From Kaistia defluvii (GTDB taxonomy: Bacteria; Pseudomonadota; Alphaproteobacteria; Rhizobiales; Kaistiaceae): DNA of 64,000 bases. The notes under the pieces are model-generated. The model made no database searches and was not told where the DNA came from. It worked only from the letters and a program-made list of their open reading frames with translations. Where the stretch lies: NCBI RefSeq assembly GCF_026343955.1, contig NZ_JAPKNI010000004.1, positions 186,001 to 250,000 of the forward strand. The letters run 5' to 3'. The translations under genes were made by a program, and so were the position numbers. Shown here piece after piece: positions 38,900-42,061 of the stretch (the stretch's first letter is position 1; each line of letters begins with the position of its first letter).

Positions 38900-39958
38900 T
38901 CATGACGAGGGAAGCGAAGCGCGGCCCGGCCCACGCTTCAGCAATTCGCGAAACAGCGAGCGCCGCCAGGACTGCAGGGCCCGCTCGCCGGTCTCCATCG
39001 CCATCACGACGTTGCCATTGATGAGCAGCCGCGCCGCGCCCCGGAAGCGGACCGGCGCCAGCGCCCGGCCGATTTCCCGGCATCGCCTGTCGTCGTAGAG
39101 CGCTGCCGCCAGATCGAGCGCGGCGACCAGCGCCAGCCGGATGCCCGACCGGCGGACCAGATCCTCCAGCGCCTGCTCCTCCGCCGCCCCCTGAAGCCGG
39201 CGCGCCGCCTGCAGCACGTCGACGACCAGCCGCAGCAGTTCGAAATGGTGCGAGCTCGCCGCATGCACGCCGGCGATCGCCAGCCGTGTCGACGGTCGTG
39301 CCGCCTCGGCCGGGTCGCCATGCGTGCAAAGCTCGGCAAAACCGAGCGAGAGCTTCGAGCGCAGGCCCGGCGCATGCACCAGATTGCCCTGGATCTCCAG
39401 CATCAGGCGGCGGTGGACCGTATGGATCCACTTGCGTTCCAGCTGCTCGTCGTCGCGCTGGTCCGGCAACAGCTCGAAGCCGGAGGAAGCCACCACCGCC
39501 TCGACCGCCGCGAGGCTTTCCAGCGGCACGATCAGGTCGATGTCGCTGGTCGGGCGCAGGACGGGATCGGGATAGATGTTGTCGGCGAAATCATGCCCCT
39601 TGATCAGCAGCGCCGGCTGATGGGCGGCACGCAGCGCAGTCGAGAGGCGCTTGGCCTCGGCCCGCAGTTGCATGTTGAAGGCGACGCCGGCCGAGAAGCG
39701 TGCCACGAAATCGTCGCGCACCGGCCGAAGGTCGGCGCTGGTCAGGATCGGCCGCAGCTTGCGCAGCACGGCCGGCAGCACGCCATGGCGCTCGGCCTGC
39801 GACAGCAGAAGCTGCGCGCGCTCCGGCACGAGCGACATCGGAGCCAGGCTCGATTCCGGATCGGCAAGGGCGATCAGCAGGCGGCCATCGGCGCGTGAAA
39901 GGCGGCGCGGGGTTCCGCCTCGAAGCGGCACGGCCTCGGCAACATCAACGGTCGACAT
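38900..39958 (-). CDS. Nucleotidyltransferase-fold protein (NTP_transf_5 type), RiPP-associated
   Basis: The 352-residue protein begins MSTVDVAEAVPLRGG. The catalytic nucleotidyltransferase core is visible as LLIKGHDFADNIYPDPVLRP (K120, G121) and TSDIDLIVPL (D139 and D141, metal-binding). The rest is helical. Proteins of this family recur beside lasso-peptide-like gene sets with a PqqD-like protein, B2 peptidase and HPr-kinase-like protein, as here. A nucleotidyl-transfer tailoring step on the peptide is possible but unproven. It lies 137 bp downstream of the precursor gene on the same strand. Confidence 0.8.
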   Translation of the reverse strand: MSTVDVAEAVPLRGGTPRRLSRADGRLLIALADPESSLAPMSLVPERAQLLLSQAERHGVLPAVLRKLRPILTSADLRPVRDDFVARFSAGVAFNMQLRAEAKRLSTALRAAHQPALLIKGHDFADNIYPDPVLRPTSDIDLIVPLESLAAVEAVVASSGFELLPDQRDDEQLERKWIHTVHRRLMLEIQGNLVHAPGLRSKLSLGFAELCTHGDPAEAARPSTRLAIAGVHAASSHHFELLRLVVDVLQAARRLQGAAEEQALEDLVRRSGIRLALVAALDLAAALYDDRRCREIGRALAPVRFRGAARLLINGNVVMAMETGERALQSWRRSLFRELLKRGPGRASLPSS

Positions 39959-40015
39959 GCAACATCATTCCAGCGACGGCAAAACCGGAGGAACATGTCC
40001 AACCGGATGAACGAA

Positions 40016-40036
40016 GGGCGATGCCCGGCATCGCCC
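40016..40036. repeat. Perfect inverted repeat between precursor gene and nucleotidyltransferase gene
   Basis: GGGCGATGCC (40016-40025), one base, then GGCATCGCCC (40027-40036). Read leftward it lies 60 bp after the precursor stop and before the nucleotidyltransferase start, with no T-run. It may be a processing or attenuation hairpin that keeps precursor mRNA in excess. Confidence 0.55.
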
Positions 40037-40095
40037 ATCATCCTGCAAACCAGGGCGCCTCCGTGCCGGGACACGAGGGCGGATCGCAGGTCAGC

Positions 40096-40194
40096 CTAGG
40101 GCGGCGGGGGCGGCGTGACGCCGGAGATCGCCGCGACAATCATCGCAACCCGATCCCGCTTCAGAAGCTCGGGCTTCTCATAGGTCTTCTTCAT
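40096..40194 (-). CDS. RiPP precursor peptide, lasso-like leader with proline-rich C-terminus
   Basis: This 32-residue peptide is too short for most gene finders. It begins MKKTYEKPELLKR and ends SGVTPPPPP, with a short hydrophobic middle (VAMIVAAI). The leader matches the recognition pattern YxxPxL bound by PqqD-like lasso B1 proteins (Y5, P8, L10); the usual Gly that follows is Asp14. The start is ATG 40194, behind GGGGAATATGGA; ATG 40212 would add six residues. Ser24 and Thr27 are the only hydroxyl residues near the C-terminus. There is no Asp or Glu after residue 14, so a lasso ring cannot form. It is divergent from the PqqD-like, B2 and kinase genes. No expression data were available. 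Confidence 0.75.
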   Translation of the reverse strand: MKKTYEKPELLKRDRVAMIVAAISGVTPPPPP

Positions 40195-40263
40195 TCCATA
40201 TTCCCCAGTCATCTCTTGAATCGTTCGGGAATTACCCGCCGATAGCCCAGCCAACCGCAAGCG

Positions 40264-40276
40264 TGACCTCTGGTCA
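40264..40276. promoter_or_regulatory. 13-bp palindrome in the divergent RiPP promoter region
   Basis: TGACC-TCT-GGTCA lies between the precursor start (40194) and the PqqD-like gene start (40333), 70 and 57 bp away respectively. On the minus strand it includes a TTGACC that could serve as a -35 element. It may be an operator serving both transcripts. Confidence 0.4.
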
Positions 40277-40332
40277 AGCACACGGGCTTCGGCTATCCCA
40301 CTTTTCGCACCAGCCTTACGGAGAGACATCCC

Positions 40333-40626
40333 GTGTCTAGAATCGAGCCGAGCGCCGTTTGGGCGCTTCATGAAAATACAAGCTTTCAGCCGCTCGGCGA
40401 CGGCGAAGGCGGCGTGCTGCTCGACACGGTGTCGGGCCAGCTGTTCACCTGCAACGACACTACGGCAGCCTTCCTGTCGACGGTCGACGGAACGCGCAAC
40501 TTCGCCGGCATCCTGACGGAACTCGAGACGGTTTTTGACGTCGACGCCGACATGCTGCGCGACGACATGTCGGAACTCGCCAACCATCTGGCCTCCGAAG
40601 GCCTGATCGTCCGCGTCGACAAGTGA
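40333..40626 (+). CDS. PqqD-like RiPP recognition protein (lasso B1 type)
   Basis: The 97-residue protein starts at GTG 40333 after GGAGAG. It shows the PqqD fold signature: GGVLLDTVSGQLFTCNDTTA, corresponding to the usual D-x-x-x-G-x-x-Y-x-L-N-x-T, and then a helical end (MSELANHLASEGLIVRVD). PqqD-like domains bind precursor leader peptides and hand them to processing enzymes. In lasso systems this is the B1 protein and its partner is the B2 peptidase, encoded next with a GTGA overlap. The likely ligand is the YEKPEL leader of the peptide encoded divergently. Confidence 0.88.
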   Translation: MSRIEPSAVWALHENTSFQPLGDGEGGVLLDTVSGQLFTCNDTTAAFLSTVDGTRNFAGILTELETVFDVDADMLRDDMSELANHLASEGLIVRVDK

Positions 40627-41054
40627 CAGCCGGCAGCGTCCTGCGCCGGGCGATGTTCCGGGCCGAAATGTGGTTCTGGGCTCGCACCCTGCCGTTGCGC
40701 TGCCGAAAATCGCGCGATTTCGCCGACATCATGCGGATCGCCGATGCCGGCGCGGACCGCCGCTACCACGGCTTGGCCGCGCCCTACATCGCCCATCGCG
40801 CCAAGCGCGCCGCCCGCCGCCCCTGGGTGATGCGCGACCGCCGGTGCCTGCGCGAAGGCATTCTCGCCTACCGCTTCCTGACGCTCGCGGGCATCCCGGC
40901 CGACATGTATTTCGGCGTCGATCGCAAGAGCATCGGCAGCGCGAAGCTCTCCGCCCATTGCTGGGTCGTCGTCGACGGCAAGCCGCTTCTCAATCCACCC
41001 GAGCCGTCCATGGTGACGGTGTTCATCGAAAAGAACCGCGCCGGACACGCCTGA
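40623..41054 (+). CDS. Lasso-peptide B2-type leader peptidase (transglutaminase-like)
   Basis: The 143-residue protein starts at GTG 40623, overlapping the PqqD-like stop. It has the B2 family pattern: RRCLREGILAYRFLTLAGIP with the nucleophile Cys75, and KLSAHCWVVVDGKPL with His112 and Asp118, giving a plausible Cys-His-Asp triad. YFGVDRK corresponds to the conserved GV segment. In lasso systems B2 removes the leader while the cyclase closes the ring; no cyclase gene is present here. The product probably cuts the precursor to release its C-terminal part. The stop overlaps the next start (TGATG). Confidence 0.88.
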   Translation: MTAGSVLRRAMFRAEMWFWARTLPLRCRKSRDFADIMRIADAGADRRYHGLAAPYIAHRAKRAARRPWVMRDRRCLREGILAYRFLTLAGIPADMYFGVDRKSIGSAKLSAHCWVVVDGKPLLNPPEPSMVTVFIEKNRAGHA

Positions 41055-42061
41055 TGCACACGACCCGCTATGTCATTCCCGGCCTCGCCTTCAACATCGT
41101 CGCCGAACGCGAGGGTCTGGCCGCGCCGATCTTCCCGCAGCTTGTCGGGTTCCAGCAGCCGGAAGGCCCGGTCGCGCATGAGATCCGGGTCCGCGAAGCG
41201 GCCGGCGACGACATTCCCACCGAGGGCGAGGTGATCTGGTCCGGCAAGCTGATCGACGGCCTCTATGCCGAGATCAGCACGCATGGCAACCGGCAGCAGT
41301 TCCGCGTCCCAGGCAAGCTTTCGATCGTCGAGGAACTCGGCAAACCGCACACCGACGTCCAGGTGACGGCTGCAGCCGAACAGCCTTTCCGCTCCATGGC
41401 CGGCGCCGTGCTCTTCGACATGGTGCTGCGCGGGCACGGGCTGATGACGATTCACTCTGCCTCGCTGATGGTGCCCGGGCGGGACGAACTCATGCTGCTG
41501 TTCGCCCCCAGCGGCTTCGGCAAGACGACGACCTCGCTGGCGCTGGCGCTGGGTGGCTACGGCCATATGGGCGATGACGTGGTGATCCTGCGCCAGGAGG
41601 GCACCGACCTGTTCGGGTGGGGCATGCCGCGCACGTTGAAGGTGCAGCGCCGCACGGCGGCGATGTTCCCGGAAATCCTGCCGCATCTGGGCGAATTCGG
41701 CGGCGAGGAGGACGAGGCGCCGCTTACCCGGGCAGCGCTGGCCGAACTGATGCCGCTGCCGGATGCCTCGAAGAGCTACAAGATCGCCGCCGTGGTGGTG
41801 GTGGGCCCTCGCTCGGAAGGCGGGGCAAGCCTGGCCCGCCTCAGCAAGGGCGACGCGCTCTCCGTGATCCTCAGCGACAATATCGGCCTGCTCGGCGGCG
41901 GCGTCCCGCGTTCGCAGCAGGTGCTGTTCCGGCTGCTGTCCAGGCTTGTCGGCGCAACCCCGACCTTCCGCCTCGACGCCGGCAACCAGCCGCGTCGCAT
42001 CGCGCCCGCATTCGACGCGGCGCTGGGCATCGTGCGCGAGGCGCAGGCCGCCGAGGCTTAG
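41054..42061 (+). CDS. HPr-kinase-like ATP-binding protein of the RiPP locus
   Basis: The 335-residue protein begins MHTTRYVIPGLAFN. The C-terminal two-thirds resembles HPr serine kinase: TIHSASLMV, the P-loop LFAPSGFGKTTTS (K157, T158) and the downstream acidic GYGHMGDDVVIL. Homologues in paeninodin-type lasso clusters phosphorylate the C-terminal Ser of the precursor. Here the candidate acceptors are Ser24 or Thr27 of the precursor. It is the third gene of the tightly overlapped PqqD-like, B2, kinase operon. After its stop the sequence enters a repeat-bearing gap. The kinase reaction is inferred from family knowledge. Confidence 0.82.
   Translation: MHTTRYVIPGLAFNIVAEREGLAAPIFPQLVGFQQPEGPVAHEIRVREAAGDDIPTEGEVIWSGKLIDGLYAEISTHGNRQQFRVPGKLSIVEELGKPHTDVQVTAAAEQPFRSMAGAVLFDMVLRGHGLMTIHSASLMVPGRDELMLLFAPSGFGKTTTSLALALGGYGHMGDDVVILRQEGTDLFGWGMPRTLKVQRRTAAMFPEILPHLGEFGGEEDEAPLTRAALAELMPLPDASKSYKIAAVVVVGPRSEGGASLARLSKGDALSVILSDNIGLLGGGVPRSQQVLFRLLSRLVGATPTFRLDAGNQPRRIAPAFDAALGIVREAQAAEA

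Follow-up and report, generated by a model that had tools for sequence, protein, structure and literature searches.

A lasso-type gene cassette without a cyclase in Kaistia defluvii and its probable short linear phosphopeptide products

Gene content of the cassette

The window, the 64,000-nucleotide stretch of contig NZ_JAPKNI010000004.1 of Kaistia defluvii analysed here, contains five genes that fill positions 38900-42061 exactly and are named, in this order, N, A, B1, B2 and K. This cassette carries leader-processing genes of lasso type and encodes no lasso cyclase. A sequence-only reading of the same DNA had proposed that a precursor, a nucleotidyltransferase, a PqqD-like protein, a B2-type peptidase and an HPr-kinase-like protein lie together here, and all five genes were confirmed at their positions.

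The cassette is divided into two divergent units. Gene A (40096..40194, minus strand) encodes a precursor of 32 amino acids, and N (38900..39958, minus strand) lies downstream from it and is co-directional. An intergenic stretch (40195..40332) separates A-N from B1 (40333..40626), B2 (40623..41054) and K (41054..42061), all three on the plus strand. The start of B2 overlaps the stop of B1 and the start of K overlaps the stop of B2, so that the operon looks translationally coupled.

Conservation was assessed across 19 cassette genomes, defined by a match to K with E ≤1.7e-26 in a search of the family (28 genomes) or ≤2.1e-35 in a search of the order (397 genomes), where the next K match had an E value of 1.4e-13. 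Eighteen of the 19 came from the order draw and one, G021, from the family search; a further 17 loci whose kinase matched less well (L029-L036, L078-L086) contained no B2 and were not retained.

N, a putative tailoring enzyme of 352 amino acids, matched PF14907 NTP_transf_5 with 98.1 bits (cut-off 31.2), and its D139 and D141 were invariant in the 18 cassette genomes aligned (G021 was omitted from the alignment). B1, of 97 amino acids, matched PF05402 PqqD with 39.8 bits (cut-off 23.4) and is a PqqD-type recognition element (RRE) of ribosomally synthesized and post-translationally modified peptides (RiPPs). B2, a transglutaminase-like cysteine leader peptidase of 143 amino acids, belongs to NF033537 lasso_biosyn_B2 (58.2 bits, cut-off 33). 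Its catalytic C75 and H112 were invariant in 19/19 cassette genomes; the third catalytic residue was left out as evidence because it appears to vary in other B2s as well. Sequence searches of the PDB with B1, B2 and N returned nothing useful.

K, of 335 amino acids, is assigned to the HprK/phosphoenolpyruvate (PEP) carboxykinase superfamily as HprK-like by its motif and predicted fold, its scores lying below the family cut-offs. The His, the Walker-A Lys and the Asp-Asp pair of the superfamily are present in K, and H134, K157, D174 and D175 were invariant in 19/19 cassette genomes. The fold was predicted with confidence (predicted local distance difference test score 89.8), and the 50 listed PDB matches of the model were PEP carboxykinase entries, one of them a PCKA-QOX2 model, with a best E value of 2.5e-8 and a template-modelling score of about 0.5. 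With the sequence profile of K, the best PDB match was an HPr kinase, but only at E 0.063. HPr kinase belongs to the same fold as PEP carboxykinase. The same His-Lys-Asp-Asp set is described for such kinases (PMC9266682).

Conservation of the layout and absence of a lasso cyclase

Using profiles built from the cassette proteins, B1-B2-K in this order with N near was found in all 19 genomes with a close K, which belong to nine genera. N adjoins the B1-B2-K operon; in the window genus it lies just across the precursor, and in G066 about 2.7 kb off. When NF033537 was searched in the 397 genomes of the order, 33 B2 loci were found in 27 genomes, and 18 of these loci were cassettes without an adjoining cyclase. 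Twelve of the other 15 had a match to PF00733 (Asn synthase) within 1 kb, the match in G227 being split into two weak parts of about 32 bits.

In a tree of B2 sequences, a long branch with a support of 99/100 separated the 19 cassette B2s from 13 others of the order; some branches were long, the bootstrap had not settled, and the lasso-side B2s of G209 and G089 were left out. The neighbourhood survey of kinase homologues proposed in the sequence-only reading found that the cyclase-free layout recurs, in 19/19 cassettes. Since the layout is constant and its B2s form one separate clade, the sequences indicate that the cassette is old and conserved, and a recent deletion is not supported. Three non-cassette B2 genes (G097:C3:368448, G394:C1:11063 and G315:C1:1455768) were without PF00733 within 10 kb; they lie outside the cassette clade.

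A K 86% identical was encoded in a metagenome-assembled genome titled Hyphomicrobiales bacterium, the only locus returned by the contig scan with K. Of 72,556 plasmid records, none matched K at E 1e-10. A B2 profile was run over 385 genomes of the class, and the window genome alone matched at E 1e-12; at most 11 candidates were scored per genome, so that absence elsewhere is not firm.

The boundaries of the unit could be read from sister genomes. The cassette is present in 6 of the 14 genomes of the window genus, flanked in 6/6 by Crp on the side of N and by TetR on the side of K, and Crp and TetR are directly adjacent in 8/8 genomes without it. This empty site identifies the unit as N, A, B1, B2 and K only, and no transporter, immunity gene or regulator was found between Crp and TetR.

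No match to PF00733 was found in the window, so that the absence of a cyclase at the locus and within 64 kb, as first reported for this DNA, held. The whole-genome search suggested at that time also detected none: in the window genome, rated 100% complete in 21 contigs, PF00733 gave three weak matches, read from their translations as MnmA, ArgG and NadE, and the macrolactam cyclase (C) of lasso peptides was not detected. In none of the 19 cassette genomes did a PF00733 match over 40 bits lie closer than 9 kb to the cassette. Eight had no such match, namely G000 (the window genome), G017, G021 (only 92% complete), G023, G026, G168, G143 and G271; the other 11 had at least one match, none beside the cassette.

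Five g65 genomes carry, on the same contig as the cassette and 9-30 kb away from it, a locus with PF00733, B2 and N. Separate loci with PF00733, B2 and B1-like, K-like and N-like genes share a contig with the cassette in G226, G120 and G209 (L089, L090 and L091); two related systems in one region are reminiscent of the clusters of linear polyphosphorylated peptides (LPPs) and paeninodin in Bacillota.

Precursors beside and away from the cassette

Precursor A consists of a leader of 21 residues (40132..40194, minus strand), MKKTYEKPELLKRDRVAMIVA, and the core AISGVTPPPPP of 11 residues (40099..40131, minus strand), with a predicted cut after residue 21 and Ser3-Gly4 in the core. The cut was placed after motif residue 17 counted from the leader Tyr, as in Bsf, a phosphorylated lasso peptide of Bradymonas sediminis whose authors state that YxxPxL always occupies positions -17 to -12 (PMC10368454); A has Tyr-17, Pro-14, Leu-12 and Val-2, its spacing from Tyr to Leu being the one described there. 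For the core, the calculated [M+H]+ is 1032.572 unmodified and 1112.539 with one phosphate. In the orthologues of A found in relatives, conservation was confined to the open reading frame (ORF). The ratio of non-synonymous to synonymous substitution rates (dN/dS) was 0.03-0.17 for ten pairs of five genus relatives, over the 23 codons from the leader to the core SG, which indicates purifying selection.

A candidate precursor adjoins 14 of the 19 cassettes, with up to six in tandem that have one leader and varied cores. The 31 cassette-side precursors have a median core of 11 residues, and SG occurs in 24/31 cores (shuffled: mean 4.6, maximum 14); related rows among them are not independent, the leader of the two G006 rows was taken as one residue longer, and the doubtful G120 candidate was excluded. 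The G023 precursor is diverged and has a long tail. The YxxPxL leader, the RRE (B1) and the B2 peptidase of lasso systems are thus present, while the Asp/Glu at core positions 7-9 and the threading tail are absent from A, whose core of 11 residues contains no acid. Three precursors of G097 (L073, 5449-6593) have proline-rich cores, one of them ending in a run of 15 prolines. None of the Pfam and NCBIfam models reached its cut-off with A or with eight further precursors, the best for these eight being DUF5972 and lasso_cyano, at 17 bits.

A precursor profile searched over the 19 cassette genomes matched in 17 at E 0.01; it missed G006 and G097, where precursors beside the cassette had already been found otherwise. 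Reading 19 stretches around the better off-cassette matches, a selection of all matches, gave 49 further precursors in 12 genomes, away from any cassette gene; B1, B2, K and N had no match in these stretches even at E 10. Core lengths were 7-19 residues across cassette-side and dispersed precursors, save two outliers of 31 and 45, and residue -2 was mostly T, A or V. Some profile matches in the genus, at positions 1-12 of ORFs of 34-39 amino acids, are probably ribosomal protein L34, judging from their motif.

Five tandem precursors are encoded in the window genome itself (G000 contig C17, locus L172, 5701-6934), in a place where cassette genes are absent; the array is bordered by a sugar-kinase gene on one side and an adenine-deaminase-like gene on the other. 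Its leader reads YETPxLxKR(E/D)KLDRI(A/T)A and its cores have 8-12 residues. Cys, Ser and Cys follow in close order in all five cores, as Cys-x-x-Ser-x-Cys in four, and this close order occurs in 18/49 dispersed cores. In 215 kb of one contig read from the cassette-negative genome G016, neither the dispersed array nor its flanking genes were found.

A profile of the leader only was then applied to the loci read, inside which the core cannot bias such a search. At least 12 bits were scored by 74 of 8,895 ORFs and by none of the shuffled ORFs. A Ser at core position 3-6 was present in 72 of the 74 matches (shuffled cores: mean 38.4, maximum 50); the profile that had served to pick the stretches covered the core as well, and matches within one genome are related. 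These dispersed precursors point to a repertoire of peptides that is otherwise hidden, and the cassette enzymes probably modify them in trans as well.

Proposed product, rival explanations and neighbouring genes

We consider it likely that the cassette produces a short, linear, leader-cleaved, Ser-phosphorylated RiPP that is tailored by N and arises in part from precursors in trans. B1 would bind the YxxPxL leader of the precursor and K, aided by B1, would phosphorylate the conserved Ser near the core start (Ser3 in A). B2 would cleave after residue 21, between Val-Ala and Ala, and N may attach a further group, a nucleotide or a sugar, to the phosphate. No ring would be formed, given the lack of a cyclase and a core of about 10 residues without a usable acid. 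Dispersed precursors would be processed in trans by the same enzymes.

The roles of B1, K, B2 and N are modelled on Bsf, LPP and pseudomycoidin (Psm). Bsf comprises A, B1, B2, K and N as well, with YxxPxL at -17 to -12, Ile/Val(-2) and Ser3 as the phosphorylation site. BsfK phosphorylates this Ser3 with the help of B1, which also assists the peptidase; the Bsf precursor has Ile(-2), and Ile/Val(-2) is also reported by its authors for further lasso systems with phosphorylation (PMC10368454). Unlike the cassette, Bsf includes the cyclase BsfC, the transporter BsfD and a Gly1-Asp8 ring (PMC10368454). Pseudomycoidin and paeninodin share an HprK-like kinase with the cassette, and Psm also a nucleotidyltransferase homologue, but these are lasso peptides with a cyclase and are modified at the C-terminal Ser (PMC9266682). 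PsmN is required for the hexose on the phospho-Ser, nucleotidyl transfer followed by a host enzyme being an alternative that was not excluded (PMC9266682).

LPPs, reported in 2026, are cyclase-free and are stated to be restricted to Bacillota (PMC13381572). They share with the cassette the lack of a cyclase, a discrete RRE, an HprK-like kinase (K by motif and fold), a nucleoside triphosphate (NTP) transferase and a YxxP leader. In a linear peptide, LppK places phosphates on Ser3 of the core, multiple phosphates at this residue being a feature of LPPs; A has a core Ser3 too, and a Ser is conserved at positions 3-6 in cassette precursors. Deletion of the lpp NTP transferase gene caused no change in a heterologous host (PMC13381572). 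LPP systems use the SpI-like LppS, a SipW homologue, where 19/19 cassettes have the B2 Cys-peptidase; no SpI-like peptidase occurs in the genus unit, which has no sixth gene, the rest of the genome not having been searched for it. Further differences are an MsbA-like transporter in the LPP set and none in the genus unit, precursors of 35-200 amino acids with the motif YxxPxVLxHQxIxFETxxS, an LppA core of 45 amino acids as compared with about 10 (PMC13381572), and Bacillota versus Hyphomicrobiales, with precursor genes additionally dispersed in the cassette genomes. The cassette works like LPP but lacks two of its features, the peptidase and the transporter; it likewise lacks two features of lasso systems, the cyclase and a ring-competent core. 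The earlier proposal of a linear RiPP unlike lasso peptides stood as regards the missing cyclase and the short, mostly not ring-competent cores; a cyclase-free type is not unprecedented, since the RiPP type with RRE, HprK and NTP transferase had been published for Bacillota. A literature search, outside which lay most subscription journals and preprints, found no B2-type cyclase-free cluster and no such dispersed precursors described, and the dispersed repertoire is the newest part relative to known systems.

Each enzymatic step, the order of steps, the group added by N and the action in trans are deduced, and several observations weigh against the proposed product. K shows distant sequence similarity to the HprK-related kinases A and B, also HprK-like, and scored far under their cut-offs of 200 (TIGR04352, 21 bits; TIGR04355, 10.5 bits), with E 0.15 for Pfam HPr_kinase_C; the structure model of B2 had no PDB fold match under E 0.001. 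No convincing adjoining precursor was found for five of the 19 cassettes: at G168, G209, G089 and G146 there was no candidate, and the one at G120 is doubtful. Two of the 31 cassette-side cores (G006b and G023) are formally ring-competent, that is, of at least 13 residues with Asp or Glu at 7-9. Residue -2 is Ala in 20/49 dispersed precursors, unlike the Thr/Ile/Val of the described substrates.

The most extended form of the proposal is that one cassette serves mini-precursors dispersed over the genome and yields a set of different peptides, each about 10 residues long and phosphorylated (and nucleotidylated or glycosylated). In some of them a Cys-x-x-Ser-x-Cys loop would hold the Ser, and the set would make up a combinatorial, trans-acting class of Ser-phosphorylated linear RiPP apart from lasso peptides and LPP. 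We judge this joint claim to be evenly balanced.

A lasso system served by a cyclase encoded at another site of the genome, or recently deprived of its own, would account for the lasso-type leader and B1/B2, and the PF00733 and B2 loci at 9-30 kb in the five g65 genomes could be taken in its favour. This explanation was rejected as very improbable and is largely refuted for the window: PF00733 gave nothing over 40 bits in eight cassette genomes, that of the window among them, the cassette B2s are one clade with no member beside a cyclase, and ring-competent cores number only two on the cassette side and 0/49 among the dispersed precursors. A spurious small ORF, with some other substrate for the enzymes, is hardly tenable as an explanation; the ORF has only 32 codons, and one relative (G026) uses a TTG start, but its low dN/dS, the candidates beside 14 cassettes, the profile matches elsewhere in the other five genomes and the lack of matches in shuffled ORFs all argue for a real gene.

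The cassette could also be a member of the published LPP family that merely occurs outside Bacillota, for it follows a common logic of RRE, HprK-like kinase, NTP transferase, YxxP leader and N-terminal core Ser without a cyclase. We think this quite unlikely in view of the SpI-like peptidase, the MsbA-like transporter, the longer precursors and the restriction to Bacillota given for LPP (PMC13381572), as against B2 in every cassette, a genus unit without a transporter and cores of 7-19 amino acids apart from the two outliers. Finally, the peptide may be consumed as a scaffold for a small molecule or cofactor, as PqqA is for pyrroloquinoline quinone, or serve as an intracellular phosphate or nucleotide carrier or regulator rather than be exported. 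A five-gene unit without transporter, immunity or regulator gene fits this view, as do tiny cores with a single nearly invariant Ser; host transporters might nonetheless serve for export. We hold such a role to be unlikely, since the tandem precursors of one genome vary in their core tails, more as expected of a diversified product than of a fixed scaffold.

On the preferred reading, that of a linear phosphorylated RiPP, a stable lineage appears to have retained the lasso-type leader, RRE and B2 peptidase without closing a ring, and the presence of B1/B2 is therefore not enough by itself to predict a lasso peptide. With five genes as its minimal set and sister genomes that cleanly lack the cassette, the system offers an entry to the role of phosphorylated linear RiPPs and a route to the function of the uncharacterised PF14907 nucleotidyltransferase. 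Cluster-based mining would overlook the dispersed precursor repertoire.

Two further HprK-like kinases are encoded in the window genome (L087 and L088, on contigs C15 and C12 of G000), each within a few kb of an NTP_transf_5 gene; at L087, glycosyltransferase-like genes lie between the two. Around the 19 cassettes, some of them in loci cut by contig ends, no further single gene family was common to at least three genera, except for mixed adenosine monophosphate (AMP)-forming ligases, antisense shadow ORFs of the cassette genes and a single group made up of four ORFs in three genera. No transporter family common to at least three genera was recognised near the cassette, the shared group of four ORFs having no family call. 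AMP-forming ligases were near the cassette in six of the nine genera; as a sixth enzyme they were set aside, being of differing kinds (Aas-like, propionate-CoA-ligase-like and others). An exception is formed by the ligases of G066 and G167 (L074, 5608-7011, and L077, 5279-6703), which lie beside cassettes of two families, are 49% identical and may represent an extra tailoring enzyme.

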